Source: Flavobacterium panacagri (GTDB lineage: Bacteria > Bacteroidota > Bacteroidia > Flavobacteriales > Flavobacteriaceae). From it: a stretch of DNA of 64,000 nucleotides. Made by a program: the position numbers and the translations under genes. Under the pieces are notes generated by a model, which worked only from the letters and a program-made list of their open reading frames with translations, ran no database searches and was not told where the DNA came from. Each line of letters opens with the position of its first letter. Position 1 is the first letter of the stretch. The stretch is from the NCBI RefSeq assembly GCF_030378165.1, contig NZ_CP119766.1:4030001-4094000 (forward strand). Direction: 5' to 3'. Positions 6,230-54,635 of the stretch are shown here, piece by piece.

Positions 6230-7015
6230 ATGTACAATCCTTTTAAAAAGAATAAGAAAGAAGACGTTGTTTTAAATAAGTTTAAAAAGCAACTAGAAAG
6301 TAAAGGTTTATTTATTGATTCTATTGATGAAGAAGGATTGATTCATATAAATGCAGAGGAATCCGATTTAAAAGTTAGTCTAGAAAATGTCAAACGAAAT
6401 TATGAGAGGGACTCTGATGATAGCCATATTACTGATTTAGTTGATGTAATCATTTCACATTTATCAAAGAAAGAAGATTGGAAAAATATCAACGATAAAG
6501 TAATTATTCAATTTTTTCCGAATGATTTTGAGTTTGATAATATAGTGCATGAAAAAGTTACTAATGAATTCAGTAAGGTTTTTGCATTAAATCTCAATAA
6601 TGGTTTTTCATTCATAACTACAGATGATTTGTCAGACTGGAAAATAAATTTTGAAGAATTAAAAAAGCAAGCTGACGTCAATTTAGAAATCCTTCTGGAT
6701 AAAGCAAAGATTGAATTTGAAGATATTGACAATCATAAATTGGGTATGATTAATATTGAAGAAATAGCGCTTAAAAGTTCATGTCTTTTTTCTCTGAAAA
6801 TTAAAAATCTAGTTCAAAATACTATTGGTTTTCCCTTTTATGCGGTAATTCCAGTAAGAGACTTTTGTTATATTTTTGCTGAAGAAGATTTTGAATTTTT
6901 CTCTCAACGTTTAGGTCCTGTTGTTCTTGATGAATATAATAATTCTGGATATCCTATTACAACTGAGATATTAAGATTTTCGAATACTGGGATTGAAGCA
7001 ATAGGTAAATACTAG
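6230..7015 (+). CDS. DUF1444-like protein
   Basis: About 261 residues from the ATG at 6230; a TTG two codons earlier is less likely. The C-terminal third contains FYAVIPVRDFCYIFAEED, which resembles the conserved end of the DUF1444 (Bacillus YtpQ) family, and the middle region has alternating helices. No signal peptide. The function of this family is unknown. The upstream gene is also a small soluble protein on the same strand, and no clear promoter was seen between them. The family assignment is tentative. Confidence 0.6.
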   Translation: MYNPFKKNKKEDVVLNKFKKQLESKGLFIDSIDEEGLIHINAEESDLKVSLENVKRNYERDSDDSHITDLVDVIISHLSKKEDWKNINDKVIIQFFPNDFEFDNIVHEKVTNEFSKVFALNLNNGFSFITTDDLSDWKINFEELKKQADVNLEILLDKAKIEFEDIDNHKLGMINIEEIALKSSCLFSLKIKNLVQNTIGFPFYAVIPVRDFCYIFAEEDFEFFSQRLGPVVLDEYNNSGYPITTEILRFSNTGIEAIGKY

Positions 7016-7131: not shown

Positions 7132-7965
7132 ATGAGAGTTAAATTCTTGTTTAGTGTAGCAATTTTGACGGTAATTTTTTGTTTTTTTTCATTTTCAAAG
7201 GCAAATAATACGACCAATAATAATCTTTTGGGAAATACAATTCAACAACGTTTTGAACCACCTCAGGGATTTGTGAGAGAAGAGGAATCTAAAACTTCGT
7301 TTGGATCTTTTTTACGAAATCTTCCATTAAAGAACTCAGGTTCAAATGTTTTATATTTTGACGGAACTGTAAAAACAAATCGAAACGTTTACGAGGCAGT
7401 TGTGGACTTACCCATTGGGAAACAGGATTTGCATCAATGTGCTGATGCCGTGATGCGTTTACGAGCGGATTATTTTTATAACCAAAAACAGTACGATAAA
7501 ATACATTTTAATTTTACAAATGGTTTTCGAGCTGATTTTAGTAAATGGGCAGCAGGTTACAGAATTGCAGTTAAAGGCAACAAAACAAGTTGGGTTAAAA
7601 CTGCAAAAGCATCTGAAAGTTATGAAACTTATTGGAAATACTTAGAGACGGTTTTTATGTATGCAGGAACGGCTTCGTTAGAAAAAGAACTAAAACCAAT
7701 TAATGTTTCAGACATAAAAATAGGGGATGTTTTTATAAAAGGAGGCTTTCCAGGCCATGCTGTTATTGTAGTTGATATGGCTGTGAATCCAAAAAATAAT
7801 CAAAAAATTATGCTTTTAGCACAAAGTTATATGCCAGCACAGGAAATTCAAATATTGAAAAATCCCAATAACAGTTCTTTGAGTCCTTGGTACGCTGTCG
7901 ATTTTGGAACTTCCCTAAAAACCCCCGAATGGACTTTTAATTCCTCACAATTAAAACGTTTTTAA
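7132..7965 (+). CDS. DUF4846 family secreted protein
   Basis: 277 residues with an N-terminal signal peptide (hydrophobic residues 5-20, ending near FSKAN). It then has the DUF4846 signature: an FDGTVK strand, VYEAVVDLP, LHQCADAVMRLRADYFY, and a later FIKGGFPGHAVIVVDMA segment. The last resembles NlpC/P60-like folds where a Cys/His catalytic pair might sit; here GHA is visible. It directly abuts an M15 peptidase gene (no spacing), so the two are almost certainly cotranscribed. A cell-wall related role is inferred from the partner and fold hint. Confidence 0.75.
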   Translation: MRVKFLFSVAILTVIFCFFSFSKANNTTNNNLLGNTIQQRFEPPQGFVREEESKTSFGSFLRNLPLKNSGSNVLYFDGTVKTNRNVYEAVVDLPIGKQDLHQCADAVMRLRADYFYNQKQYDKIHFNFTNGFRADFSKWAAGYRIAVKGNKTSWVKTAKASESYETYWKYLETVFMYAGTASLEKELKPINVSDIKIGDVFIKGGFPGHAVIVVDMAVNPKNNQKIMLLAQSYMPAQEIQILKNPNNSSLSPWYAVDFGTSLKTPEWTFNSSQLKRF

Positions 7966-43231: not shown

Positions 43232-45145
43232 TTATGAGAATTGTGTCAATTGAAATTTACTCTTAATTAGTTCCTCGAGGTCTTTCATTGGGGCTAAAGC
43301 ATTTTTTAGTTTCTCCTTATCTGTTTTAGACATTTCTCTTAAATTAATATATTGACCAGAGTCGTCATTTTTTAATCCCTCAACAGTTCTAAATTTAGAA
43401 AGTGTTAGAAAAGCCTCAGCACAGCTTAAATAAATTTCAGCATTTTTAGAATCTGTTATTGCTAACTGCTTGAATCTTAAATAGGTGTTTTGTATTCCTT
43501 TAATGTTTGCATTCAAAATTAATAAACGTGCGCCATCTATCAAAGGCATTAGCGCGCGAGTTTTTATATCAAATTTTCCTTTGTGCGGCCCTTCTTCTTC
43601 GATAATGAATTTTTTAAAGAAGCTTAAAGGAGAGTTTCTCTTTAAAGCATCATTTCCCAAAAAGTCAAAGAATAAAGTATTGTTAACAGCATTTTTGAAA
43701 ATTACATTTTCGATTGCTTCTTCGATTTTTGCTTCACCAAAAACAATTTCATAATCAAAGAAAATACTGCTTAGATCGTTGCTGTTTTCACCTGGAGTAT
43801 TCATCCAGCTGTTGTATTGCTTTGTCCAGTCACTCAATGATTTGCACCAGAGCATATTACTTCCCATATGGCCGTTTGGACAATATTCGTAGCCTACTTT
43901 TTCTAAGATAGAAGTAGTTCTTTTAGCTAATCTTAAGAAATAATCTTTTACTTCTCTATATTTTTCAGGTGTAACATCTTCAAAAATCAAAATACTATCC
44001 TGATCTGTTAATAAAAGTTGTTCTTTACGCCCTTGACTACCAATACTTAACCATGCAAAGCGTGCAGGAGGGGAGCCTAAATCCAAAATTGAAAGCTCTA
44101 CGGCACGTTTGATAATAGCTAGGTTGATTTCGCTTGCAATATTACTAACATGCGAAATCGGGATATTTTTTTGAATTGAATTCTGAATCAAATCTGACAA
44201 ACGATCACGAATCTGTTTTAAATCTTTTGGAAGCTGAGAACGCTTGATTTCTTTAATTAAAACACCTGGATTACTAGCCTGAGCTACAATAAGATCGTGT
44301 TCAGAAATGATTCCTTTTACTACAGATTTACTTGTACCGTCTTTTGTAACACATAAGTGGGTTACATTATGTTTTAACATTAACAATTGAGCCTCTGCTA
44401 AAGAAACATTTTCAAGGACAGTTACAACTGGGGAAGACATGATTTTGTCAATAGTCTCGGTAATAGGATAGCGTCCCGTTGCAATCTTTGAAGACAAATC
44501 AGCATTGGTTACAATACCAATTGGATGATTTTTTTCGCAGATTATAATATTATCCACCATAGATTCGGTCATCAAAATAGCAACATCTTTTACAATATGG
44601 CTAGCCTGAGTTGTTAACGGAGAATTATTATAGTTAAGTGATTGAATGTATTGCATTTCTGATTGCTGATCAATATAATCTACATCAGAAATTAGTTTAC
44701 CATTAGAATTTACGCTGTCTTTTGTATGACGTGAATTTACAGCAAAACTCTCTAATAAGAAGTTTAAAACATCTGAATTATTAGCGACAAAAGGTCTAAA
44801 TACAGCGATTGGAATAGCATAAATAATACTTTCTTCGCGTGCTTTAGCTGTCATCATATAATTATTTTTGGCAAAAAACGGGCGCAAACCAAAAATATCA
44901 CCTTCATGGCATTTGTTTATAATAGTTTCCTCAGCGTCAGCAATGGTTGTAAGATTGATTACACCAGAAGCTACTACATAAAAACTATCATGAAGCGGAT
45001 CATTATTTTGAAATAAGACCGCATGTTTTTCTAAGTTAATAACACGGATATTGGTAGCAATATCCGATAATTCCTGAAAAGTTAAATTATCAAAAGGTTT
45101 GTATTCCTTCAAAAAATCAGCAATATGCTCAGCAACTGTATTCAT
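43232..45145 (-). CDS. cNMP-binding, CBS and DUF294 nucleotidyltransferase-like signal protein
   Basis: 637 residues, cytoplasmic. An N-terminal cyclic-nucleotide-binding fold (about 1-140, with FYVVASGVINL and GDIFGLRPF) is followed by two CBS motifs (about 185-300, with MSSPVVTVLE and GIISEHDLI). DUF294 then has a nucleotidyltransferase-like SIGSQGRKEQLLLTDQDSILIFED motif, and a helical C-terminal DUF294_C domain completes it. Similar proteins regulate acetate/adenylate-linked functions beside acs. Both the ligand and target are unknown. Cotranscribed with the exonuclease-like gene. Confidence 0.88.
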   Translation of the reverse strand: MNTVAEHIADFLKEYKPFDNLTFQELSDIATNIRVINLEKHAVLFQNNDPLHDSFYVVASGVINLTTIADAEETIINKCHEGDIFGLRPFFAKNNYMMTAKAREESIIYAIPIAVFRPFVANNSDVLNFLLESFAVNSRHTKDSVNSNGKLISDVDYIDQQSEMQYIQSLNYNNSPLTTQASHIVKDVAILMTESMVDNIIICEKNHPIGIVTNADLSSKIATGRYPITETIDKIMSSPVVTVLENVSLAEAQLLMLKHNVTHLCVTKDGTSKSVVKGIISEHDLIVAQASNPGVLIKEIKRSQLPKDLKQIRDRLSDLIQNSIQKNIPISHVSNIASEINLAIIKRAVELSILDLGSPPARFAWLSIGSQGRKEQLLLTDQDSILIFEDVTPEKYREVKDYFLRLAKRTTSILEKVGYEYCPNGHMGSNMLWCKSLSDWTKQYNSWMNTPGENSNDLSSIFFDYEIVFGEAKIEEAIENVIFKNAVNNTLFFDFLGNDALKRNSPLSFFKKFIIEEEGPHKGKFDIKTRALMPLIDGARLLILNANIKGIQNTYLRFKQLAITDSKNAEIYLSCAEAFLTLSKFRTVEGLKNDDSGQYINLREMSKTDKEKLKNALAPMKDLEELIKSKFQLTQFS

Positions 45146-45342
45146 ACGTTTTTGATAAAATTTTAAAGTATCTAATGTAAAAATACTAAAATAAACTCTT
45201 ACAATGAAAGCATCTTGATGAGAATCTAGTATATTTTAAAGAAATGTTAAGAATTACTGATAATAAGGCGTTAAAAGGTTTTTTTTGGATTAGAAAACTT
45301 CCAATCTTTTGCATTAAAATATATTCAAAGAATACGATTTAT

Positions 45343-45684
45343 GAGAATTGAATAAAATAGAATTTATTCTATTTTTTTTCAAATATGCTATTCTGAATAA
45401 TTGATTTAATAGTTCTCAAGTAAATTCTAGAAACCAAATTTCTCAGAATTTCTTAAAATCATTTTTTATCTGAATATTAATAAAACTGCTTAAAAAAATC
45501 AAATCCCTGAGAATCGCTTAAAAACGAATTTATTTTAATTTTTCTGAAATATTGAATTCTCCTAGATGCGTTAAATTTTTGTTTTAAAATTATCTAGACA
45601 ATCTGCCAACTAAGCTGAATCGAGATTTTCTGAGAATGTTCTAAAATGAAATTTTTAAATCCAATTTTCAAATATTGAATTCTC
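45343..45684. repeat. Degenerate 52-53 bp repeats in a 690-base gene-free region
   Basis: The gap 45146-45835 has no supported gene. It contains three related units, 45343-45394, 45509-45561 and 45632-45684. Each begins GAGAAT, continues with TAAAA then GAATTT/GAAATT, and ends AAATAT..ATTCT(C), so the ends are inverted (GAGAAT/ATTCTC). A partial fourth unit starts at 45444 (CAGAAT, TTAAAA). Spacing is irregular. They border the phage-like element on its left and may be chromosomal or terminus-related repeats. Confidence 0.6.
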
Positions 45685-45779
45685 ATGAATTGAATTTGTA
45701 GGACATAGAAGGTAGAGTGATTAGATAGTTGAATATTAAAATATAGTGATGTGACGAGTATAAAAAACTTAAATTTTCT

Positions 45780-45807
45780 ATTTTACATAATATAAATTAT
45801 AGTTCAT
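45780..45807. other. Candidate left attachment site, XerCD dif-like
   Basis: ATTTTACATAA, TATAAA, TTATAGTTCAT: an 11-6-11 layout with inner CATAA and TTAT as in E. coli dif. A second copy agreeing at 19 of 21 core positions lies at 53699-53726. It is 28 bases before the first gene of the element. Function is inferred. Confidence 0.5.
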
Positions 45808-45835
45808 TTGTGATGTAACTAATTAACATTAACCA

Positions 45836-46144
45836 ATGGCTTTAAAACGTTCCTCTTTAGAGAATTACACGCTATTACTTGTAGAATTAAACAAGATGCG
45901 TCACACAAATTTCAATGCAAAAACATTTTTGAAAAAAATGCGTCCATTTTGCAAAACCTCACATTTAAAGTTCAAAACATTATTCCTAAGAATCCGTGGT
46001 TCAAATATAGGAATTACAATTCGAGTTTGTACGGATTGCTTTATAGTAACTCAATCTTTTTGTGTTCACGAATTTATTTTTTACTGCAATTCTCAGAAAA
46101 CGCTGATTTCAAAACTTCTTAAACATAATCTTCTAATACCTTAA
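45836..46144 (+). CDS. Element ORF 1, hypothetical basic protein
   Basis: 102 residues, basic, no signal. N-terminus MALKRSSLENYTLLLVELNK is helical and could be DNA-binding; the rest has several Cys and aromatic residues. Not recognised. The stop is three bases before ORF 2, and the start lies 28 bases after the dif-like site, so it would be the first gene of the element. Could be an early regulator, but that is only position-based. Confidence 0.5.
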   Translation: MALKRSSLENYTLLLVELNKMRHTNFNAKTFLKKMRPFCKTSHLKFKTLFLRIRGSNIGITIRVCTDCFIVTQSFCVHEFIFYCNSQKTLISKLLKHNLLIP

Positions 46145-46147
46145 TAT

Positions 46148-46474
46148 ATGTCAACAATTTTACTTTTAATCCAAAAACGAGAAAATTTGCTTTTGGAATT
46201 AGCTGGATTAAATCATGATTTAAATGAATATTCAAAAAATCCTGTAGAGACTGTCGATTTACTTGGCTTAAAACATCAGCATGATTTTACGATTAGAGAA
46301 ATTAAACAAATTGGTCAGCAGATTAATGTTTTTTTTAATTCTCAGATTTCAAATTATAAGCAGAAATTTTTTGAAGTTGAAAAGAAAATAACTGAAGCAA
46401 TCTCAAAGAAAGAATTTACGATAAATGATTTACCAAAAAATCATTATTCACTTTGGCAAGATTCGGAAAATTAA
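46148..46474 (+). CDS. Element ORF 2, hypothetical helical protein
   Basis: 108 residues, predicted long helices with heptad-like hydrophobics (RENLLLELAGLNHDLNEY and FFEVEKKITEAI), so a coiled coil is likely. No known family. Located between ORF 1 and the rep hairpin, same strand. May act with the replication protein, by position only. Confidence 0.55.
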   Translation: MSTILLLIQKRENLLLELAGLNHDLNEYSKNPVETVDLLGLKHQHDFTIREIKQIGQQINVFFNSQISNYKQKFFEVEKKITEAISKKEFTINDLPKNHYSLWQDSEN

Positions 46475-46506
46475 TTTTTTGCTACTCCCCTTTCGATTTT
46501 TCAATA

Positions 46507-46530
46507 GTTGCCGTAGGGTATAACGGCAAC
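46507..46530 (+). promoter_or_regulatory. Perfect hairpin upstream of rep, candidate replication origin
   Basis: GTTGCCGT / ACGGCAAC, 8-bp G+C-rich stem around the loop AGGGTATA, 27 bases before the rep start. No T run follows, so it is not a terminator. Rolling-circle initiators nick in or beside such hairpins. Confidence 0.5.
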
Positions 46531-46557
46531 TAACTCACTCAAAACCTACTAAAAACA

Positions 46558-47751
46558 ATGATTTCATATAAAGAAAGGCATCAAGCCCAAACTAAATTCA
46601 AAAACAATAATTTAAAACCTACTCTTATAAATATAGACTACTTAATTATCAATTTAGAGGGTCAACCGTTTGGAGAATTTCCCGAACATTCAAAGTTTCG
46701 CTTAAAACCCTACGAATATGGAACTAAGATTTTTGAGCTAAGAGCAGACTTGTATTATGAGAATTTAAAAATCGGTATTTATACAGCAAGACCACGTTCA
46801 GCAATTATGAGCGAACAATTTGCTCAGCTTCAATTTGAAAACAATCTATTTTACACATTATCTAACGACGCTTTGAAAGGTGTCATAAATGCTTTTTGCG
46901 ATGAAACGAACTACTTATTTAAGTCTATTAATAGACTGGATATATGCCTTGATAAGTCTGATATCAACAATTCTTACCGTAATTTATATAGTAATGTGGT
47001 TGCAGGTAACTACCTTATTTCGGGGCGTCCAAAAAATTTACAAAGCTATTTTGAAACCTACAAAGGAAAATCAATACTTAACGGCTTCCAAATTGGGAAA
47101 AGAACATCTGATAAAATAATACGATGCTATAACAAAACGCTGTCTTTACAGCTTACCGAAAAGCCATACATAAATGAATATTATGCAAATAATGGTTTGA
47201 AAAACGACAATGTTTGGCGTTTTGAATATCAGTTAAACTCAGCGTTTTTTAGAGGTCTTAACGAACATTCAAAAGGAAATGTAAATATCAGTCAGGCAAT
47301 GACTTGGGGTGTTTTTGATAAAGCAAATCTTTATGAGTTATTGAAAATCGCAAATAAAGGTTTTTTTGAACTGCGTGAGAATACTGGCAAAAGTCAAATC
47401 AATAAAGAAAAGCTTATTACTCTTTTTGATTTTGATTTTTTACAGTCCCAAATTACCAAATTCAATCCTATAATCAAGCGTTTAAAAAAGGTTGTTCTTT
47501 CTTCGACAACAATTAAAAAACGTCTTGCAAAATCACTATTTAGAGAATATTACGCAAACAATCAGGATATATCTTATATCGTCGCTCTAAATCTTTTACT
47601 TCAAGATATGGACATGACTACTGAAAACCAACTTTTAGTTTGGTTTCAAAACAAATTACATTTCTATCTGCACGAATTTAGAACAAAGGAAAAATTAGTA
47701 AATGATTTTGATTCTGAATTATTCCACGAACATCAACTTTTATTTTTATAA
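46558..47751 (+). CDS. rep: Rolling-circle replication initiator, Rep_trans-like
   Basis: 397 residues. It carries motifs of the Rep_trans family (PF02486, pT181/RstA type): RLDICLD at 126-132, IGKRTSDKIIRCYNK at 179-193 with Tyr191 as candidate nicking residue, and WRFEYQL at 220-226. The C-terminal 150 residues are helical. Such proteins nick one strand at the origin and start rolling-circle synthesis of plasmids and ssDNA phages. The gene follows a perfect hairpin, is followed four bases later by a small HTH-like gene, and precedes the structural operon. It lacks the HUH two-His motif, so it is not a Microviridae-type initiator. Confidence 0.8.
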   Translation: MISYKERHQAQTKFKNNNLKPTLINIDYLIINLEGQPFGEFPEHSKFRLKPYEYGTKIFELRADLYYENLKIGIYTARPRSAIMSEQFAQLQFENNLFYTLSNDALKGVINAFCDETNYLFKSINRLDICLDKSDINNSYRNLYSNVVAGNYLISGRPKNLQSYFETYKGKSILNGFQIGKRTSDKIIRCYNKTLSLQLTEKPYINEYYANNGLKNDNVWRFEYQLNSAFFRGLNEHSKGNVNISQAMTWGVFDKANLYELLKIANKGFFELRENTGKSQINKEKLITLFDFDFLQSQITKFNPIIKRLKKVVLSSTTIKKRLAKSLFREYYANNQDISYIVALNLLLQDMDMTTENQLLVWFQNKLHFYLHEFRTKEKLVNDFDSELFHEHQLLFL

Positions 47752-47754
47752 GCC

Positions 47755-47922
47755 ATGAAAACACAGAATACAAGCCAAAAAGTAACTAAAACCCAGTTAA
47801 TGCATATTCTTGAATTAAGTTATAAAACTGCTTGCAAAGAGTATCAAGTTATACTCGATTCCTTAGAATTAAAAAGGAGTTATTTAACTGTACAAGACCT
47901 AATTAAGTACGGCATATTATAG
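47755..47922 (+). CDS. Small putative DNA-binding protein (55 aa)
   Basis: MKTQNTSQKVTKTQLMHILE is followed by LSYKTACKEYQVILDSLELK and an end with LTVQDLIKYGIL. The LELSYKTACKEY part looks like the recognition helix of a helix-turn-helix, with a winged or excisionase-like tail. It starts four bases after rep and its stop overlaps the first unit of a 10-bp repeat array, which would be a natural binding site. Role as copy-control or late-promoter regulator is inferred. Confidence 0.6.
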   Translation: MKTQNTSQKVTKTQLMHILELSYKTACKEYQVILDSLELKRSYLTVQDLIKYGIL

Positions 47923-47970
47923 GGAAAATTAGGGAAAATTGTGGAATTATAGGGAATTTTAGGGAACGTC
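47921..47970 (+). repeat. Five helically phased 10-bp direct repeats
   Basis: AGGGAAAATT, AGGGAAAATT, GTGGAATTAT, AGGGAATTTT, AGGGAACGTC stand end to end with an exact 10-base period. They lie between the small HTH-like gene and the structural operon (58 bases before the coat gene). This looks like an operator or iteron array. A TAACCTTTG sequence near 47985 may be a promoter -7 element, though it has one base too many. Confidence 0.7.
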
Positions 47971-48028
47971 AAATAATAGTTGCAATAACCTTTGTGAAAG
48001 AAATTTAAACAAATAAAATTTATAACAA

Positions 48029-48748
48029 ATGAAAATTGCAACTATTACAGGCGTTACAAAATCGCCAGAACTTCAAGTAACAAAAGCAATCGGTGCTTTA
48101 ATTCTTTCAAGTGATCTGCCATTATCAGGCTTAACTACTGAAAAAATTAGTATTTACATTGAACGTGGAAACGGCTCGAATGTCATTTTAGCAAATAAAG
48201 TTTTGCTTAAAGATTTCATTTTAGCAAGTACCTACGGAACTGAAAATACACAGTCTGATGAAGATAATGCTTTGATTGCATTGTGTGAATTAGCAGACGA
48301 AGGTTCAATTTATCTTGCAGATAAAGAGAGTATTAAAATTACTCTTGAAGATTTAATTGCAGGTAAACGCTACGATTTACACGGAATCGAAGAGCCACAG
48401 CAAACAAATAATTTATTCTTTTTTGAACAAAAATCTGTTGCTTCTGAGGAGTTCAACAAAAAAATTGATGTTCAGGGATTTGATTTGGCTGTTATGACTG
48501 TTGACGATTCAGTAAGCGATTTGTCTTATCAGTACTCAAATGGTCAGGTAGTTAAATACCTTCCTTTTGAACTTCAAACATTAAGCCGTGATATTGACCC
48601 TATCCAAGCTGTTCTTGCAGATGGAAAAGTTTTACAAGGCTTAACGGATAGATTAACCTTGCCTTTAGTGGCGGTGGTTGGTATTGAAATCAATAAGTCG
48701 CAAGGCTCAATTATTAATTTCGTCGTAAGATGTTTAAAAACTGTGTAA
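48029..48748 (+). CDS. Predicted major coat protein, double-jelly-roll type
   Basis: 239 residues, almost wholly beta, no signal. The segment LSGLTTEKISIYIERG and KVLLKDFILAS (about 32-67) resembles in order and spacing the N-terminal jelly-roll of PM2 coat protein P2 (SGVT..I..VRVELDG..TLNDLILEN). Two similar halves with a helix break near 130-160 fit a double barrel. It is the first gene of the structural block after the repeat array. The comparison is from memory of one family member, so the call needs structural confirmation; tail or spike protein is the alternative. Confidence 0.55.
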   Translation: MKIATITGVTKSPELQVTKAIGALILSSDLPLSGLTTEKISIYIERGNGSNVILANKVLLKDFILASTYGTENTQSDEDNALIALCELADEGSIYLADKESIKITLEDLIAGKRYDLHGIEEPQQTNNLFFFEQKSVASEEFNKKIDVQGFDLAVMTVDDSVSDLSYQYSNGQVVKYLPFELQTLSRDIDPIQAVLADGKVLQGLTDRLTLPLVAVVGIEINKSQGSIINFVVRCLKTV

Positions 48749-48751
48749 GCT

Positions 48752-49228
48752 ATGGGATTTTTCAAAAAAATTGGAACAGCGATTAAGAAAAACGTTTCGT
48801 TCAAAAATTTGGTAAAGGTCGCTACTCCTATTATGGGTGCTATTCCTTTCGTTGGTGGAACTGTTCAAAATATATCGCAGAATTTGCAAGATGCTCACGA
48901 AGCAAAAAAAGCAAATAAACAGGCTGAGGAAGAATACAACAAACAAATGGCTTTAAATACCGCAAGTCAAGCGGTTGGTGCTGTAGCAAATGCAGGTTCT
49001 CAGATTTTCGCAAAAGCCGTAACAACTGGAATTAATGACGGTTTAAGTACTGGTTTTGTTCAGGGTTCGGGTCAGGTTGGTGCTACTGTCGTAAGTTCAA
49101 CTATTAAGGTTTGGTTTCAAAGAAACTGGAAAATTGTTTTAGGTGCTGTCGCTGGTCTTATTGCATTGATTTGGTTTTTAAGACGTGACCGCAATAATTC
49201 AGGAAGAAGAGTTGCTAGAAAAAGATAG
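48752..49228 (+). CDS. Small virion membrane protein candidate
   Basis: 158 residues. N-terminus MGFFKKIGTAIKKNVSFKNL is amphipathic, a glycine/alanine-rich hydrophobic middle follows with EAKKANKQAEEEYNKQM coiled region, and a C-terminal membrane helix (about 128-143, IVLGAVAGLIALIWFL) ends in a strongly basic tail RRDRNNSGRRVARKR. A membrane protein of this size directly behind the coat gene fits the inner-membrane proteins of PM2/FLiP-like virions. The basic tail could contact the genome. No homologue recognised. Confidence 0.65.
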   Translation: MGFFKKIGTAIKKNVSFKNLVKVATPIMGAIPFVGGTVQNISQNLQDAHEAKKANKQAEEEYNKQMALNTASQAVGAVANAGSQIFAKAVTTGINDGLSTGFVQGSGQVGATVVSSTIKVWFQRNWKIVLGAVAGLIALIWFLRRDRNNSGRRVARKR

Positions 49229-49239
49229 CAAGCCGAAAA

Positions 49240-49288
49240 ATTACTATCGAATCTATCTTATTGTATTTCTGATAGATTCGGCAGTAAT
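49240..49288 (+). promoter_or_regulatory. Large intergenic hairpin in structural operon
   Basis: CGAATCTATC (49248-49257) pairs perfectly with GATAGATTCG (49271-49280). ATTACT and AGTAAT extend the stem outside a 2-base mismatch to about 18 pairs; the loop is 13 bases. There is no T run. Candidate single-strand origin, packaging signal or transcript processing element. Confidence 0.5.
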
Positions 49289-49342
49289 CATAGTAAAAAA
49301 ACTGGCTGAAATCATATTATTAATTAAACACATTATAAAGTA

Positions 49343-49741
49343 ATGGCACAAAATAGAAAAAATTCTAATAATCAGAATTACAACAATAATAACAATAACC
49401 AACAAAAGGTAAAGCATTCAGGTGCAAAGTACACTACTTACATGCCTGTTACGGGGCCTAATAAAGGTGTTGAACAGCATTTAACAACTGGTTGGAGATT
49501 GTCTAAAGGAGAATTGATTGCAATTAAATGTGTGACTACCAATAAATCAAATCTTTCTGAAAAAGGTTGGTTTGGTTCTGTTGCATGCACTTTTACAAAC
49601 ACTAAAACTGGTGTTCAATCATTTCACTGGGGTACAATGCAGAAAAACGGCGGTAAAGTCGTAATTGACAGTATGGCGTTTGTAATTAATCCACGTGCGA
49701 AAAACGGAGGTTATGCAGGTACATTTATTCGCTCGAACTAA
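49343..49741 (+). CDS. Hypothetical beta-rich structural protein with Asn-rich N-terminus
   Basis: 132 residues. The first 20 are nearly all Asn/Gln (SNNQNYNNNNNNQQ), flexible, followed by a compact beta domain with KHSGAKYTTYMPVTGPNKG and TTGWRLSKGEL, and WFGSVACTFTNTKTG. No signal or membrane segment. A small structural or nucleic-acid binding protein is possible; the N-terminal low-complexity tail resembles disordered linkers of minor capsid proteins. Not recognised. Confidence 0.6.
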   Translation: MAQNRKNSNNQNYNNNNNNQQKVKHSGAKYTTYMPVTGPNKGVEQHLTTGWRLSKGELIAIKCVTTNKSNLSEKGWFGSVACTFTNTKTGVQSFHWGTMQKNGGKVVIDSMAFVINPRAKNGGYAGTFIRSN

Positions 49742-49844
49742 TGTTTAGGTTCATATTAAAGTTCCTCCCTCTTATACTTCACGAGGGGGTCGATTTACTC
49801 AAAGAGCATTTAGAAAAAAGAAAACAATTAAAACAAAATAAGTC

Positions 49845-50021
49845 ATGAAAAATTTGAAAGGAATTGTTTCGATAATTGGTATTATCGTAAAATATGGTGC
49901 GGTTGTTACTGCTATTTTAAAAGGTATTCAGGTTGTATCTGATGAATTAAGCAAGCTTGATTTCGGAAAAGATGAACCTCAAGCGCCTGCCAAACCTTTA
50001 ACTATCGAAGAAAATGAGTAG
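49845..50021 (+). CDS. 58-residue one-helix membrane protein
   Basis: MKNLKGIVSIIGIIVKYGAV is followed by VTAILKGIQVV, so residues 6-31 are hydrophobic; an acidic, Pro-rich tail ends EENE. The stop overlaps the next start by eight bases, showing translational coupling with the lytic enzyme. Holin-like or virion membrane role is possible by position next to the lysin. Too small for standard gene calling but the overlap supports it. Confidence 0.6.
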   Translation: MKNLKGIVSIIGIIVKYGAVVTAILKGIQVVSDELSKLDFGKDEPQAPAKPLTIEENE

Positions 50022-50559
50022 TTATTTAGGTAGAAAAGAATTAACACGAGGTATTCGAAATAACAATCCGGGTAACTTGGTTTTGACAAATATAGCATGG
50101 CAGGGAAAAATACCAAATGCTCAAAATACAGATAAACATTTTGAACAGTTTACAGAAGTAAAATATGGTATTCGTGCCATGTTGCGAGATTTGACAAATG
50201 ATATTGATAAAGGTAAAAATACCGTAAGAAAGCTTATAACTGAATATGCCCCGCCATTTGAAAATGATACGCAAAAGTATATTGAGGTTATCTCTAAAGC
50301 TGTCGGTTTAGACCCTGACCAAACAATTAAAATTGTTGATGCAAAATTTTACTTAGTTATTGCACGTGCGATTATTAAACATGAATGCGCACCCGATCAC
50401 AATTTAATTTACGATTCAGACATTCAAGATGCGATTGACATTATGGGAGATTACAATCTTGCAAGCGTTACCGTAACGGCTAAGAAGAAATTCAAGTTCA
50501 ATTATTTGATTATTCCCGTACTACTTTTTTTTTATACTGTTTACAGCGTTACAGTCTAA
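50014..50559 (+). CDS. Membrane-anchored peptidoglycan-cleaving enzyme (P5-like)
   Basis: 181 residues. GIRNNNPGNL at 13-22 followed by FEQFTEVKYGIRAMLRDL and an ITEYAPPFENDTQKYIE segment is the lysozyme-like fold of 'structural protein P5' / phage-type lytic enzymes. Residues about 163-179 form a hydrophobic helix at the C-terminus, so the enzyme is tied to a membrane. In membrane-containing phages such enzymes open the cell wall on entry or exit. Starts inside the preceding small gene. The lytic-family call is good; bond specificity unknown. Confidence 0.78.
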   Translation: MSSYLGRKELTRGIRNNNPGNLVLTNIAWQGKIPNAQNTDKHFEQFTEVKYGIRAMLRDLTNDIDKGKNTVRKLITEYAPPFENDTQKYIEVISKAVGLDPDQTIKIVDAKFYLVIARAIIKHECAPDHNLIYDSDIQDAIDIMGDYNLASVTVTAKKKFKFNYLIIPVLLFFYTVYSVTV

Positions 50560-50606
50560 ACAAACGCCCAAAACGATAAAAATTATTAATTCAAAATTTA
50601 AACAAG

Positions 50607-50714
50607 ATGTTAGATAAAATCAAACTTTTTTACGCAAACAATAAAACTATTGCAAATGTTGTATTAGTGGCTTTAGCGGGATTCTTAGCTTATAAATTAT
50701 TTAAGAAAAAATAA
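50607..50714 (+). CDS. 35-residue one-helix membrane protein
   Basis: MLDKIKLFYANNKTIANVVL, then VALAGFLAYKLFKKK: one short membrane helix with a lysine-rich end. It stops two bases before the next start. Such tiny membrane proteins are common in PRD1/PM2/FLiP-like virions. Real gene by tight spacing and start position; function unknown. Confidence 0.6.
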   Translation: MLDKIKLFYANNKTIANVVLVALAGFLAYKLFKKK

Positions 50715-50716
50715 TT

Positions 50717-51238
50717 ATGGCTCAAAGAGAGATAATGAATAGAACGAAGAGCCAAGCCAATACTGTTTGGCTCTTTGATTTTCTGCAAAAATACTGGCTT
50801 TTGGTTGTTGGTATCATTGTGTGTTATCCATTATTAAAAAAATGGTATGCTAAATTCACGCAAGATGCTGAGGAAAAAGCTTTGGAAGATGCGGAAAAAG
50901 ATTTAAGAATTGCAGTTTCTAACCCAATGACAAAAGAAATTGAATTGAACAAAATTACACCTCGTAAAGAAGTTCATGACATAGCAGAATCTTTGGCGGT
51001 ATGGTTAGGAACAAATAAGCAAACGAAAGATTCTCCTTGGTATACTTGGATAACTGAACCAATGTCTAATTTCGAAAATGAAAGAGAGACTATTAACGAG
51101 TTATTGAAAGTGAAGCAAGTTACAACTGTTCCTTTAGTAATTGGCTGTTATTATGTTGTTACACGCCGTGATTTAAAGGCTGATTTAAAAAAATATTTAT
51201 CAACCTCGGACTTAAAAAAAGTTCCTTTATTCAATTAA
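50717..51238 (+). CDS. Hypothetical membrane-anchored protein with hairpin in its 5' coding part
   Basis: 173 residues with a membrane helix at about 23-42 (FLQKYWLLVVGIIVCYPLLK) and a soluble region with an acidic helix (AEEKALEDAEKDL). ATG at 50735 is an alternative start. Bases 50747-50775 in the gene form a perfect 9-bp stem. No family found. Position among virion-type genes suggests a minor structural or assembly protein. Confidence 0.65.
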   Translation: MAQREIMNRTKSQANTVWLFDFLQKYWLLVVGIIVCYPLLKKWYAKFTQDAEEKALEDAEKDLRIAVSNPMTKEIELNKITPRKEVHDIAESLAVWLGTNKQTKDSPWYTWITEPMSNFENERETINELLKVKQVTTVPLVIGCYYVVTRRDLKADLKKYLSTSDLKKVPLFN

Positions 51239-51244
51239 AACGAC

Positions 51245-52096
51245 ATGAATTATATACAATATATTGATGATACATACGCGGTAAAAGTAAAGGAAATTCC
51301 GTATTATGATGAACAGGGTTACGCTGTAAAAGATATTCAAACACCGTTTTTCATATTGTCGCTTTTTATTGACAATAAACGTGTAAACGGCGTATATTTT
51401 AATAATTACGATAGTTTGGCTATGTTGTCAGTTATTAATGATTTAGGTAACGTCGATTTAAATGTTATTCCCGAAAATCATTTTGCAACTGCTTTTACAG
51501 AAATATTTCTTGGAGTTCCTTACTCTACTGGTTCGAGTGTGCAGATTTCAAATTTTAGTGATTTTCAAAAGAAGCCATTAAGATATTTAAAAGAGTATAA
51601 ATTACCTCAATTTCGCTTAGATGGTAGATTTTCTCAGGGTTCAGGTTATGCTTACGATACTAGGGTTTATTCTTTGCTAAAACTTGGTACAATTCAATCG
51701 GATAATAAATTCTATACGGCATTTTATGATACTTATAGAAATGGTACTCATATCGATAACTTAGAATTTCAGGGTGAAAATCCAAACTATATTAGAAGTG
51801 GTTATGATTTAGTTACGTCTTTTCCAGTTCAGAACAATGGTAGTATTGTTCAGTTTGGAGATTATTATGTAAAAATGACAACAACTAAACCTTATCCTTA
51901 TGGTCTTAGCGTTTTTATATTTACAGATATTAGAACTAATGAATTTTGGTTTTATGTGAATTATATCGAAGTTGGCACGAGTATTATTAAAAAAGGAGAA
52001 TTCGATATCTCAACATTTGTTTGTGTGAACGGAGGTTTTAAAATTAAAAATCTCATGCATGAAGTAGAGATACAAATCACAAATATTTATGGCTAA
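51245..52096 (+). CDS. Hypothetical beta-rich protein, possible spike or receptor-binding protein
   Basis: 283 residues, no signal or membrane helix, beta-rich with many Tyr/Asn/Gly and short turns (e.g. FILSLFIDNKRVNGVYFNN and FIFTDIRTNEFWFYVNY). It is the second-largest protein of the element after Rep, near the end of the operon, where vertex or receptor-binding proteins often lie. It might alternatively be the major coat protein if the 239-residue protein is not. No homologue recognised. Confidence 0.6.
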   Translation: MNYIQYIDDTYAVKVKEIPYYDEQGYAVKDIQTPFFILSLFIDNKRVNGVYFNNYDSLAMLSVINDLGNVDLNVIPENHFATAFTEIFLGVPYSTGSSVQISNFSDFQKKPLRYLKEYKLPQFRLDGRFSQGSGYAYDTRVYSLLKLGTIQSDNKFYTAFYDTYRNGTHIDNLEFQGENPNYIRSGYDLVTSFPVQNNGSIVQFGDYYVKMTTTKPYPYGLSVFIFTDIRTNEFWFYVNYIEVGTSIIKKGEFDISTFVCVNGGFKIKNLMHEVEIQITNIYG

Positions 52097-52313
52097 TACT
52101 ACTCCAACGCCTTACAGCTGTACAATCTTTAATAAAGATAAAAGTATAAGACCTATAAAAGTTGAGTTTTGCAAATCAATATATTATCTACATAACTGGT
52201 GTAAAAATGTCGGATTTGATTATCACTACATTAATATTTACAATCGAAAAACTGGTAATTATATTTCTCGACAATATTCTAATGATTATATAATAGATAA
52301 GCCTTTGTATTAA
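52089..52313 (+). CDS. Last gene of structural operon, 74-residue hypothetical protein
   Basis: Overlaps the preceding gene by eight bases (ATGGCTAA). It has two cysteines (SCTIF and NWCKN) and many Tyr, small and beta-rich. The stop codon lies inside the terminator hairpin. May act with the 283-residue protein; not recognised. Confidence 0.6.
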   Translation: MANTTPTPYSCTIFNKDKSIRPIKVEFCKSIYYLHNWCKNVGFDYHYINIYNRKTGNYISRQYSNDYIIDKPLY

Positions 52314-52332
52314 TTTACAAAGGCTTTTTTTT
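52299..52332 (+). terminator. Terminator of the phage-like operon
   Basis: AAGCCTTTGTA (52299-52309) pairs with TACAAAGGCTT (52316-52326), loop six bases, followed by eight T. The stop codon of the last plus-strand gene lies in its loop region. Confidence 0.9.
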
Positions 52333-52969
52333 AGTCTAATATTGTTATGGTTTTTACTTTTACAACTTCTACATATAAAAACCCTCCTTTTTCAGATGTA
52401 TTTCTTTCATCTTTGAAATAATAATTATTGTCTACTCCTCTTAAATATTCGACAATCCTTTGCATTTTTGTATATGCTTCAAATCTATCTTTTACTTGGA
52501 TATAAATGTCTGTTTTTTTAGTGAATTCATTTGTTGGGACTAAATTTATTTTTCTTTCGTTTATTATACTTGAAACAAATGTGAATTTTAATTCTGTTTT
52601 GAAAAGATTTGATAAATTATTTTTTTCAAGATAGTCATCGTCTTCATAAAGCATATTAATGTTTAGAAATCCCAATGGTTTTATATTGACTAATTGTATG
52701 TGAAAATTTGACTTGTAATGATCCTTATACTTTTTATTGTCTTTTAAATGATATTTGTTATCTATATATGCACAATAATCTCTAACTGTTCCCATTATTA
52801 TAGATGCATCATATGGAGTGTTAACGCTAACGTAATTATCGTCTAAATCATCGTAGTTGTCCGATAATGTAAATCTTAATTCTTCATCATCTTGTAAAAA
52901 ATTCTCTCTAAATTTTTTATGATAGTTAACAATTTGAATTAAAACTTGCTCTTCTTCACTTAAAGCCAT
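52331..52969 (-). CDS. Hypothetical minus-strand protein at the end of the element
   Basis: 212 residues, acidic, cytoplasmic, starting MALSEEEQVLIQIVNYHKKF. It contains YVSVNTPYDASIIMGTVRDY and ends VEVVKVKTITILD. No family recognised. It is convergent with the phage operon and the only minus-strand gene of the segment, which is where cargo such as superinfection exclusion or immunity is often placed. Whether it belongs to the element depends on the right boundary. Confidence 0.55.
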   Translation of the reverse strand: MALSEEEQVLIQIVNYHKKFRENFLQDDEELRFTLSDNYDDLDDNYVSVNTPYDASIIMGTVRDYCAYIDNKYHLKDNKKYKDHYKSNFHIQLVNIKPLGFLNINMLYEDDDYLEKNNLSNLFKTELKFTFVSSIINERKINLVPTNEFTKKTDIYIQVKDRFEAYTKMQRIVEYLRGVDNNYYFKDERNTSEKGGFLYVEVVKVKTITILD

Positions 52970-53115
52970 ATTTTTTAGTTTAAATTAATTTGTGTCTATA
53001 AATTTTTTAAAGGTATAATTATTTATTCTTTTATAGCAATTGACAAAGTGAAATTAAAATTATTGGCATTATATTTGAAAATCTTTAGTAATTATAAACT
53101 CACAAATAAAACCAC

Positions 53116-53559
53116 ATGAAAAAAATTACTTTATTACTTTTTATTATACTTTCTATTCCTGTTTTTGCTCAAGATTCAGATATGAAAATTTTTTTAGAGA
53201 AAAAAGAATCTATTAATATCGACCAATACGATTTGATAAAACAAGTAAATATATTTTATCCTGACATTCTAATTTCTAAAGAAGTTAAAGCCAATTATAA
53301 GAATAATTTGAAAGTTAACGAATTTCTATCTGCTGAATTAATTTATCCGAATAGCGGTAAGTTTAAACTTTACAATGTTACAATCATGGATAAAAGACAT
53401 TTAACTTATACCTTTTTATCAAATGATGATATTTTGACTTATGGTGATGTTCGAATATTTGATGGTAAGACGGTTCGAACCTTGTATCGTTTGTCAGGTG
53501 CAAATTCTTTAATGCAATATTTTGTCGATGGTAAATTGATAAATGAAGTAAAAGGATAA
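53116..53559 (+). CDS. Small secreted protein, paralogue of gene at 54219
   Basis: 147 residues with signal peptide (MKKITLLLFIILSIPVFAQ). It shares with the protein at 54219-54635 the sequences QYDLIKQVNIFYPDILISK (vs QYELLKKVNQYYPDITLSK) and GDVRIFDGKTVRTLY (vs GDVTIFNGNALRTTF), so the two are paralogues of one unnamed family. The two copies stand on opposite strands on either side of the candidate right attachment site. Secreted or periplasmic; function unknown. Confidence 0.65.
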   Translation: MKKITLLLFIILSIPVFAQDSDMKIFLEKKESINIDQYDLIKQVNIFYPDILISKEVKANYKNNLKVNEFLSAELIYPNSGKFKLYNVTIMDKRHLTYTFLSNDDILTYGDVRIFDGKTVRTLYRLSGANSLMQYFVDGKLINEVKG

Positions 53560-53582
53560 TTTTACAACTTCAATCAATAAAT

Positions 53583-53609
53583 AAGCCCCAATAAAACGGG
53601 GCTTTTTTT
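53583..53609 (+). terminator. Terminator of small secreted protein gene
   Basis: AAGCCCC (53583-53589) and GGGGCTT (53598-53604) with an eight-base loop and T run, 23 bases after the stop. Confidence 0.82.
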
Positions 53610-53698
53610 ATGTTCCGAATTTTTATATATTAGATTTCTTCAAAAATAGGGGTTAAAAATGCTGTTAATAAAGTTGTTAACATCTTCTTGGACATACT

Positions 53699-53726
53699 GC
53701 AAATCATACTATAAATTATAGGTCAA
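53699..53726. other. Candidate right attachment site, XerCD dif-like
   Basis: GCAAATCATAC, TATAAA, TTATAGGTCAA, with the same centre and nearly the same right arm as 45780-45807. Core CATAnTATAAATTATAGnTCA is shared (19 of 21). The left arm is more divergent, as expected if one arm comes from chromosome and the other from the phage. Confidence 0.45.
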
Positions 53727-53733
53727 AAATAAT

Positions 53734-53751
53734 ACGTCTAAATTTAGACGT
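53734..53751 (-). terminator. 18-bp palindrome, probable terminator of the minus-strand gene
   Basis: ACGTCTAAATTTAGACGT is perfectly self-complementary and stands two bases after the stop of the minus-strand gene at 53754. On the minus strand it is followed by ATTATTTTT. It is seven bases from the right dif-like site. Confidence 0.5.
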
Positions 53752-53753
53752 TG

Positions 53754-54131
53754 TTAGTATAATTTGGTTAAAATCATTTCATTAGGAACTAAATCACCGC
53801 CACCACGTTTTGTGAATTGCAATACTCCTTCATTTGTTAGTAAAACTGCACTTGAAGAAATTCCATCTTTATCTTTTAGTTTTATTTGAGCTTTATCGCC
53901 GTGCGGATACACATATCCAGAAATTTCAAGAATTCCCGAGTTCAATTCTTTATGTTCGCTTGTAACTTCGGCAGTTCCAAAAATCTTATAATTAGATTGC
54001 GCAACTGTAATTGTAAAAAAATATTCTTTTTTACAGTCTTTACATTTTTGGTTTGTCCAGGTTCCAGAAAATCGATCTTGAGAAAAAGATTTTAGAGACA
54101 TTAAAAATGCGATAAAAAGAAATTTTTTCAT
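53754..54131 (-). CDS. Small hypothetical secreted protein
   Basis: 125 residues with a signal peptide (MKKFLFIAFLMSLKSFSQ). The mature part starts FSGTWTNQKCKDCKKEYFFT (Cys-x-x-Cys) and is beta-rich, lipocalin-like in style. No family assigned. It stands between the two paralogous secreted-protein genes. Confidence 0.6.
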   Translation of the reverse strand: MKKFLFIAFLMSLKSFSQDRFSGTWTNQKCKDCKKEYFFTITVAQSNYKIFGTAEVTSEHKELNSGILEISGYVYPHGDKAQIKLKDKDGISSSAVLLTNEGVLQFTKRGGGDLVPNEMILTKLY

Positions 54132-54171
54132 TGTAAATGGTTTTATTAAAAATTTGGCTCAAATATAAACC

Positions 54172-54203
54172 AAAAAAGCATCACTATATTGTGATGCTTT
54201 TTT
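54172..54203 (-). terminator. Terminator between minus-strand secreted-protein genes
   Basis: AAAAAAGCATCAC (54172-54184) and GTGATGCTTTTTT (54191-54203), loop six bases. Ends the 54219-54635 transcript. Confidence 0.85.
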
Positions 54204-54218
54204 GGAAGTTGAACAAAA

Positions 54219-54635
54219 TTATAATTTTTTCAAATAAACTGATTTCCCATTTAAGGAAACATCGATCTGATTTGTTTTTTCGTTAAAAGTTGTTCTCAAC
54301 GCATTTCCGTTAAATATGGTAACGTCACCATGTACATGACCGGTTTCATTTGATACATAATCAAATTTAACTTTTTTGTTGTCCGGTTCGATGCCTAATT
54401 TATAGCTTGAAAATTTAGTTCCCCTTAAATCAAAGTCTTGTTGTGAATCGATAATGTTTCCGTCGGCGTAAAAATTAGTAACAGATTTACTCAATGTAAT
54501 ATCAGGATAATACTGATTTACTTTTTTTAAGAGTTCGTACTGGGCCGTACTTGCATCTTCTTGCTTAGATGTAATGGTTTGGGCAAATGAAATTGATGTG
54601 CATAAAACTGCTACTAGTAAAAGGTACTTTCTCAT
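54219..54635 (-). CDS. Small secreted protein, paralogue of gene at 53116
   Basis: 138 residues, signal peptide ending ISFAQ. Conserved blocks shared with the 53116 protein: QYELLKKVNQYYPDITLSK and GHVHGDVTIFNGNALRTTF. No named family. Function unknown. Located next to a divergent efflux-pump gene. Confidence 0.65.
   Translation of the reverse strand: MRKYLLLVAVLCTSISFAQTITSKQEDASTAQYELLKKVNQYYPDITLSKSVTNFYADGNIIDSQQDFDLRGTKFSSYKLGIEPDNKKVKFDYVSNETGHVHGDVTIFNGNALRTTFNEKTNQIDVSLNGKSVYLKKL

Follow-up and report, generated by a model that had tools for sequence, protein, structure and literature searches.

Introduction

Flavobacterium phage phiCjT23 (ON067806) has been described as a temperate, lipid-containing phage with a single-stranded DNA (ssDNA) genome and a structure determined by cryo-electron microscopy (PMC9719478). 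It has been proposed as a model for the common ancestor of the ssDNA and double-stranded DNA (dsDNA) double-jelly-roll viruses (PMC9719478). The same 2022 report describes 57 putative phiCjT23-like prophages in Flavobacterium, 6021-8407 bp long and bounded by dif sites, and infers their integration by XerC/XerD. The present work concerns a stretch of 64,000 nucleotides from the chromosome of Flavobacterium panacagri (NCBI RefSeq assembly GCF_030378165.1, contig NZ_CP119766.1, positions 4,030,001 to 4,094,000 of the forward strand), called the window below. Positions 45780-53726 of the window are interpreted here as an integrated sibling of phiCjT23, a complete-looking virus genome at the chromosomal dif site, with a probability of about 0.96. 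The class of finding is already known, since PMC9719478 describes both phiCjT23 and the 57 dif-flanked prophages. The window copy is a further member of this published kind of element and not the first of its kind.

Identity of the Integrated Element

The coat protein of the element was found to share 95.8% identity with the major capsid protein (MCP) of phiCjT23 across all 239 residues. The replication initiator, Rep, is 95.2% identical to phiCjT23 gp3 over its full length (378 of 397 residues). In these tblastn searches of 50,697 phage records, each of the two queries matched 12 records, namely phiCjT23 and 11 Cellulophaga phage records at 32-36%. When the 9301-base query 45000-54300 was compared by megablast, phiCjT23 was the sole phage record matched, at 88.4% identity over 72% of the query, and the match falls in four pieces from base 1 through base 7642 of the record. 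An earlier note on this DNA had called the element perhaps new, which fails because phiCjT23 is 88.4% identical and such prophages were reported in 2022. The element had no match among 72,556 plasmid records (megablast), and a tRNA scan and an Rfam scan of the window were both empty.

The homologues of gp1-gp13 are collinear with phiCjT23, with Rep followed by MCP as expected for a phiCjT23-like phage. Ten of the 13 are 91-100% identical to their counterparts, and gp6, gp10 and gp13 stand at 64%, 70% and 74%. Three open reading frames (ORFs) of the element, encoding 74, 212 and 147 residues, have no annotated counterpart in the phiCjT23 record.

The coat gene (48029..48748, plus strand) encodes a double-jelly-roll MCP that aligns over all 239 residues to the Major capsid protein P5 of PDB 7zzz (E=1.2e-144). 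The earlier note had likened this protein to the PM2 P2 coat and the element to phages of FLiP/PM2 type. The capsid type is borne out by the 96% identity to a solved double-jelly-roll coat, but a sequence link to the FLiP MCP was not detected by profile comparison (hhalign, 33-row MCP alignment, E=0.55). The spike P13 (gp13, 283 residues, 51245..52096, plus strand; 210 of 285 aligned columns identical) combines an N-terminal penton domain with an external part, and its first 93 residues match the inner, small-beta-barrel penton domain 7zzz_P by sequence (E=4e-38). By homology with phiCjT23, the window copy would have an ssDNA genome and an internal membrane.

Integration at the Chromosomal dif Site

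The termini of the element named in the earlier note, 45780 and 53726, fall precisely on the outer boundaries of a pair of dif-type sites. The left site, attL (45780..45807, plus strand; 28 nt, ATTTTACATAATATAAATTATAGTTCAT), joins the chromosomal XerC-side arm ATTTTACATAA to the central TATAAA and a phage-borne XerD-side arm. The right site, attR (53699..53726, plus strand; 28 nt, GCAAATCATACTATAAATTATAGGTCAA), is made of the phage-borne XerC-side arm GCAAATCATAC, TATAAA and the chromosomal XerD-side arm. The XerC and XerD names of the arms are those we take from the E. coli layout. The phiCjT23 record begins TATAAATTATAGTTCAT (its start is also written TATAAATTATAG) and finishes ...GCAAATCATAC, and its ends thus yield a site of this type. 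When at most three mismatches were allowed, the dif core matched at two places in the complete 5.98-Mb genome, attL and attR, with one mismatch each.

The left-site pattern, with at most one mismatch, was found in 163 of 199 genomes of the genus, and exactly once in all but two of them (G064 and G109; rows read by eye). A backwards control of this pattern had no match in the rows of the 199-genome search. The search for the same block in other Flavobacterium genomes, which the earlier note had suggested, located the coat gene in 44 of 398 genomes sampled, the window's own included. A dif-type site lies on both sides at 40 of these 44 coat loci. The remaining four comprise two contigs truncated close to the element (L056 and L057) and two inverted elements (L053 and L058). 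The arm ATTTTACATAA was present at the left end of all 40 double-dif loci in a scan that required the inner 10 bases only; a second count of 40 of 40 was selected on this arm beforehand and hence is no test. The phage-borne right arm terminates in CATAC in 36 of 42 right ends. The phage site departs from dif beside the central bases, and full dif is restored on the left in those 40 loci.

Empty sites were observed in three genomes without a coat match (G006, G008 and G015). These carry a cNMP/CBS-protein gene, one dif, genes for proteins of 125 and 138 residues, and an MFS gene, in the order seen in the window. The window element is flanked by dif like other phiCjT23-like phages. Host XerC/XerD are proposed as the recombinase, because no integrase was recognised among the ORFs of the element. 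All 10 of 10 bins to the left of the element have a positive GC skew, against 4 of 10 to the right, and the site of the element lies near, not demonstrably at, the skew switch.

Gene Inventory

The gp1-gp13 homologues all lie on the plus strand. They begin with gp1 (102 residues, 45836..46144; 101/102 identical to phiCjT23) and gp2 (108 residues, 46148..46474; 101/108), followed by Rep and by gp4 (55 residues, 47755..47922; 50/55). Downstream of the coat gene are homologues of gp6 (158 residues, 48752..49228; 107 of 168 aligned columns identical), gp7 (132 residues, 49343..49741; 123/132), gp8 (35 residues, 49741..49848; 35/35) and gp9 (58 residues, 49845..50021; 55/58). The gp10 homologue (181 residues, 50014..50559; 128 of 184 aligned columns) is a peptidoglycan-degrading enzyme that matches the PHROG endolysin family (E=1.3e-38). 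It is followed by a 35-residue membrane peptide homologous to gp11 (50607..50714; 35/35) and by the gp12 homologue (173 residues, 50717..51238; 163/173).

Membrane helices and anchors were assigned by eye from the sequence. On this basis the gp6 and gp12 homologues have one helix each, the gp11 homologue appears to be a membrane peptide, and the lytic enzyme has a C-terminal membrane anchor. The small proteins of 158, 58, 35 and 173 residues and the anchored lytic enzyme listed in the earlier note were all recovered as ORFs. That gene list had overlooked the spike, the 74-residue gene, the minus-strand gene at 52331-52969, the gene at 53116-53559 and the dif sites. The gp6 homologue is possibly a minor membrane protein; the match of phiCjT23 ORF6 to PM2 P3 was reported as statistically insignificant (PMC9719478). 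The Walker-A pattern GxxxxGK[ST] was absent from the 18 ORF products checked by motif search, 16 of them from the element, in agreement with the earlier note's remark that no packaging ATPase motif was found.

Replication Initiator and Candidate Origin

Rep (397 residues, 46558..47751, plus strand) is a rolling-circle replication initiator. The earlier note had assigned it to the Rep_trans type, which agrees with a Pfam Rep_trans match (E=1.9e-5; 24.8 bits, under the Pfam cut-off of 29.6) and with the PHROG replication initiation protein family (E=2.9e-47). The note had also expected a Rep family other than that of FLiP, and FLiP Rep does belong to Phage_CRI/G2P (8e-8). Upstream of rep, the sequence TAGTTGCCGT-AGGGTATA-ACGGCAACTA (46505..46532, plus strand) forms a hairpin whose loop is a candidate nick site. 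As judged from its sequence, position and covariation, this hairpin is likely the replication origin (double-strand origin). One of four 24-nt forms of the hairpin is carried by 27 of the 30 elements with a Rep_trans relative, in L050 by motif search only. The count excludes L058, whose hairpin is a shorter variant. No hairpin was seen in L056 and L057, both of which start at a contig end close to rep. In two Cellulophaga phages, GTCCCCAT(A/T)CAGTATAACGGGGAC lies near the start of rep.

Among six distinct hairpin sequences, which are few and related, all 36 pair cells are standard and three of the six pairs have changed on both sides; slid controls gave none. No shuffle out of 500 came up to the observed score for pairing or for covariation, but 33 had the three pairs and 417 as many pair types. 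The hairpin strand folds at -10.5 kcal/mol as DNA (z -3.2; 2 of 200 shuffles as good). None of the terms origin of replication, nick, stem-loop and hairpin appears in the main text of PMC9719478. An AGGGAA-rich repeat at 47916-47966, before the coat gene, holds the motifs ATTATAGGGAA..TTAGGGAA and possibly provides binding sites, with Rep considered as a ligand.

The replication gene is not constant among the relatives. At 15 of the 44 loci (L061-L075; coat 33-45% identical) no Rep_trans relative was found, and the longest ORF in the place of rep differs. Pfam was run on eight of these 15, of which three have Rep_1 (L061, L063 and L070) and five have no significant family. L064 and L071, which were outside the eight loci of the Pfam run, share an HPHLH motif with the three Rep_1 loci. 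The remaining ten align as one family that is related by profile to FLiP Rep (E=3e-6, probability 88%, 106 columns), and L073 matches the same PHROG as FLiP Rep (E=7.5e-4). Repeated replacement of replication genes has been described for double-jelly-roll phages (PMC5894146).

A Conserved Core Gene

The spike gene is followed by an ORF of 74 residues (52089..52313, plus strand). Its counterpart in phiCjT23 lies at 6332-6556 and is 91.9% identical, and the phiCjT23 record has no coding sequence (CDS) there. The gene is present in 45 of 45 elements by a profile that was built from 44 of the 45, and direct tblastn with the window protein found it in 31 of 45. Fifteen divergent elements entered the family through single-linkage BLASTP (E<=1e-4; 15-32% identical to the window protein) and then the profile. 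Among near copies, differences at codon positions 1, 2 and 3 number 65, 60 and 231. These data point to a conserved core gene that was missed in the annotation of phiCjT23. An AlphaFold model of the protein has a small alpha-beta fold (pLDDT 90.5). Foldseek gave no significant structural match to this model (best E 1.4 in PDB and 0.018 among viral models), and no function is claimed. A terminator-like hairpin (52299..52326, scored on both strands) marks the end of the plus-strand operon.

The Cargo Slot Between Spike and attR

Two further genes occupy the slot between the 74-residue gene and attR. The first (212 residues, 52331..52969, minus strand) is an orphan that was found in its own genome only among 398 and in one of 45 elements, and it had no Pfam or PADLOC match. 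The second (147 residues, 53116..53559, plus strand) encodes a protein with a signal-like N-terminal helix and antiparallel beta strands; it is a homologue of a chromosomal gene beside dif, and Pfam, NCBIfam and PADLOC gave nothing usable for it. Foldseek matches of its structural model were fatty-acid-binding-protein-like, with a best E of 0.07 and a TM near 0.25, and no function is claimed. A second terminator-like hairpin lies at 53583..53604 (scored on both strands).

The slot was compared across 18 elements with a coat more than 94% identical, consisting of 16 other prophages, phiCjT23 and the window element. Median DNA identity to the window is 86.9-95.4% over gp1-gp12, 76.0% and 78.5% over the two spike parts and 92.6% over the 74-residue gene. 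It is 24.6% over the 212-residue gene and 66.7% over the 147-residue gene. Reversed ORFs of at least 55 residues lie between spike and attR in 13 of the 18. Three pairs of elements share such an ORF and the rest are singletons (BLASTP, E<=1e-4), although distant kinship among the short reversed proteins of different elements may escape BLASTP. When 10 cargo proteins were compared with Pfam, one passed the cut-off, a 61-residue protein of L039 (FlbD, 26.4 bits). By eye, this protein (4000-4182) and other reversed cargo proteins of about 60 residues in L042 (10313-10492) and L004 (6587-6766) look alike. PADLOC, run on 10 cargo proteins, gave no match for nine. The lone weak match, phiCjT23 gp15 as ZorA (E=0.029), was taken as chance.

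The plus-strand cargo gene belongs to one of three families, which occur in 16, 7 and 7 of 45 elements. The 16-member family, that of the window's 147-residue gene, has a chromosomal counterpart. Searched against 199 genomes, a profile of this family (17 rows, including the chromosomal copy of the window) produced 53 strong matches (E<=2.9e-12); weaker matches (E>=1.8e-5, mostly only over the first 30-100 positions) were dropped before this count. Of the 53, 47 lie at most 11 kb from dif on the same contig and one at a distance of 172 kb; the contigs of the other five have no dif among the matches listed. The 47 include five cargo copies that belong to elements (G000, G080, G191, G202 and G210), and therefore 42 of the other 48 are near dif.

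A branch with support 98/97 in a 61-row tree separates 41 chromosomal copies from 16 phage copies and four copies outside elements; the tree has no outgroup and the program warns of long branches. The separation of chromosomal and phage copies on a supported branch suggests that gene exchange between the phages and the dif neighbourhood is old. The host gene that adjoins dif outside the window element (138 residues, 54219..54635, minus strand) is a distant homologue of the 147-residue gene, 31% identical. It was considered as a phage remnant, but it falls within the chromosomal group of 41 and is thus treated as a host gene. Three of the four extra-element copies lie within about 0.7 kb beyond attR, and one of them has two stop codons. 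With the coat turned to plus, these phage-type genes are at about 11.3-11.8 kb in L046, about 10.5-11.0 kb in L063 and about 11.2-11.7 kb in L049. They are probably scars left by previous prophages at this dif. The fourth copy (L153, genome G036) is 7.7 kb from dif, with no coat gene in its vicinity.

Despite a backbone of about 90% identity, the reversed gene is almost element-specific, and its secreted-like partner often comes from the dif-side family. Tentatively, the slot of roughly 0.7-1.5 kb from the 74-residue gene to attR might be a hotspot of defence or superinfection-exclusion genes expressed in the lysogen, in which the phage either acquired a gene where it attaches or donated one there. 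The terms ORF14, moron, accessory, cargo, superinfection and ATPase are absent from the main text of PMC9719478. The spike can vary as well. In L044, L047 and L048 the coat is 94-96% identical to that of the window, but the spike reaches no more than 31-45% identity at its best match, which in two of the three spans only about 110 residues. These three loci represent spike exchange on a near-constant backbone.

Proposed Life Cycle

Starting from the observed homology, gene order, ends, empty sites, slot variability and hairpin covariation, a life cycle can be proposed. The genome, about 7.9 kb, circular and very probably single-stranded, would enter the cell and be made double-stranded by host enzymes. 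The single dif-like site of the phage, CATAC-TATAAA-TTATAGTTCAT, would then recombine with the chromosomal dif, presumably through host XerC/XerD. After integration the left junction (attL) would be a complete dif and the right junction (attR) an imperfect one. The host presumably retains a working dif, because attL is a complete dif. In the lysogen, the passenger genes of the slot, one reversed and one apparently secreted, would probably be expressed and might exclude other phages. On leaving lysogeny, Rep would nick the DNA, most likely in the loop of the hairpin before rep, and drive rolling-circle replication. The double-jelly-roll coat would form a shell over a host-derived membrane held by the small one-helix proteins, the five-fold spike would bind the host, and the anchored lytic enzyme would open its wall.

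Alternative Explanations

Several observations weigh against the identification of the element as an intact phiCjT23-like prophage at dif. The backwards-read dif control matched once in the genome at up to three mismatches, and 36 of 199 genomes of the genus gave no match to the dif pattern. In L053 and L058 the element runs opposite to its flanking genes and has the full chromosomal dif on its right, an arrangement not expected from recombination at dif in a single orientation unless the site in these two is reversed. Cumulative skew within 400 kb peaks at the bin ending at 4,140,000, about 56 kb to the right of the element, and 17 GC-skew samples across the chromosome are noisy. Placement near the terminus rests on these coarse samples, because dnaA lies at contig base 415, far from the point opposite the site of the element. 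A viral_contigs search gave 35 pattern matches to the MCP, and none was confirmed as a relative. The activity of the window copy in excision and virion formation is assumed by homology with phiCjT23.

The element might be a defective remnant, a phiCjT23 homologue no longer able to excise or to form virions. The divergent XerC-side arm of attR could make excision poor, and the phage-type cargo genes just outside attR in three relatives, one with two stop codons, resemble scars of earlier elements. However, all 13 genes shared with phiCjT23 are open and ten of them are 91-100% identical, the changes in the 74-residue gene fall mostly at third codon positions, and phiCjT23, whose own ends give the same kind of site, is temperate and infectious (PMC9719478). 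This makes a remnant unlikely. A plasmid-like island that borrows Xer for integration and makes no virion is a much more remote prospect. The lack of a packaging ATPase motif would fit it, and Rep_trans initiators also occur as plasmid proteins. Yet the element has a coat, a spike and a lytic enzyme, all with close counterparts in an isolated phage, and no plasmid record matched; the earlier note had named a plasmid or non-viral island without virion homologues as one outcome that would overturn its proposal. It is just as improbable that the element belongs to Finnlakeviridae (FLiP proper) or Corticoviridae (PM2) instead of the phiCjT23 type. The same shell architecture has been reported for phiCjT23, FLiP and PM2 (PMC9719478; PMC7654751), but the coat family shows no detectable profile similarity to the FLiP MCP, and the Rep differs in type. 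The CDS of FLiP all have one orientation (PMC7654751), whereas the window element has one reversed ORF. A packaging ATPase is encoded and conserved in PM2-group genomes (PMC5894146), and no such motif was seen here. An integrated sibling of phiCjT23 remains the preferred reading.

Comparison With Known Systems

Integration at dif by host XerCD, as proposed here, is used by CTXphi, which is a filamentous phage in contrast to the icosahedral membrane phage type described here. CTXphi, which PMC9719478 also cites, is an integrative ssDNA phage that uses Xer. FLiP (Finnlakeviridae) resembles the phiCjT23 type in its ssDNA, internal membrane and pseudo T=21 double-jelly-roll shell (PMC7654751). It differs from the window element in an MCP without detectable sequence similarity and in its Rep family. 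In addition, its penton and spike are separate proteins (PMC9719478) and it does not integrate (PMC13269007).

Obscuriviridae (Cellulophaga phages phi12:2 and Omtje) share a homologous MCP and Rep with the window element (34-36% and 32-34% identical, respectively, over more than 90%) and have a GTATAACGG hairpin near the start of rep. They differ in a size of about 6.5 kb, in having all annotated genes on one strand and in a lytic enzyme annotated as another type. The profile of the 74-residue protein had no match at E<=10 in phi12:2 and Omtje_1. The coats of these phages (L127, 1666-2391; L129, 4157-4882) are homologous to the solved double jelly roll of phiCjT23 (80 of 225 residues identical in phi12:2), and the lineages in their records still read Microviridae. 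Obscuriviridae are shown without a realm in the 2025 ICTV summary (PMC12451628) and are counted in passing in Varidnaviria in a 2025 preprint (PMC12324425). A 2025 paper names a different gene, gp08 of phi18:4, as the coat.

The closest described system is phiCjT23 itself, which shares with the window element the MCP, Rep, spike, minor proteins, lytic enzyme, gene order, dif-type ends and size (7642 nt, about 7.92 kb here). The two differ in the spike, gp6 and gp10 and in the cargo slot, which in phiCjT23 holds gp14 (60 residues) and gp15 (186 residues) and in the window two genes without similarity to these. A close integrated sibling in a one-contig genome, together with 43 further loci, documents the attachment site through the host dif and element-free sites. 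It adds a core gene missed in the type genome, a testable replication origin and a small set of cargo genes that can be tested for phage exclusion. The other 43 phiCjT23-like Flavobacterium loci resemble the window element in their dif-type ends, related MCP and 74-residue gene (by profile), and differ in their cargo genes and, at 15 of the 44 loci, in having no detected Rep_trans relative. Among the window element and its relatives, variation in spike, Rep and cargo is independent of variation in the coat.

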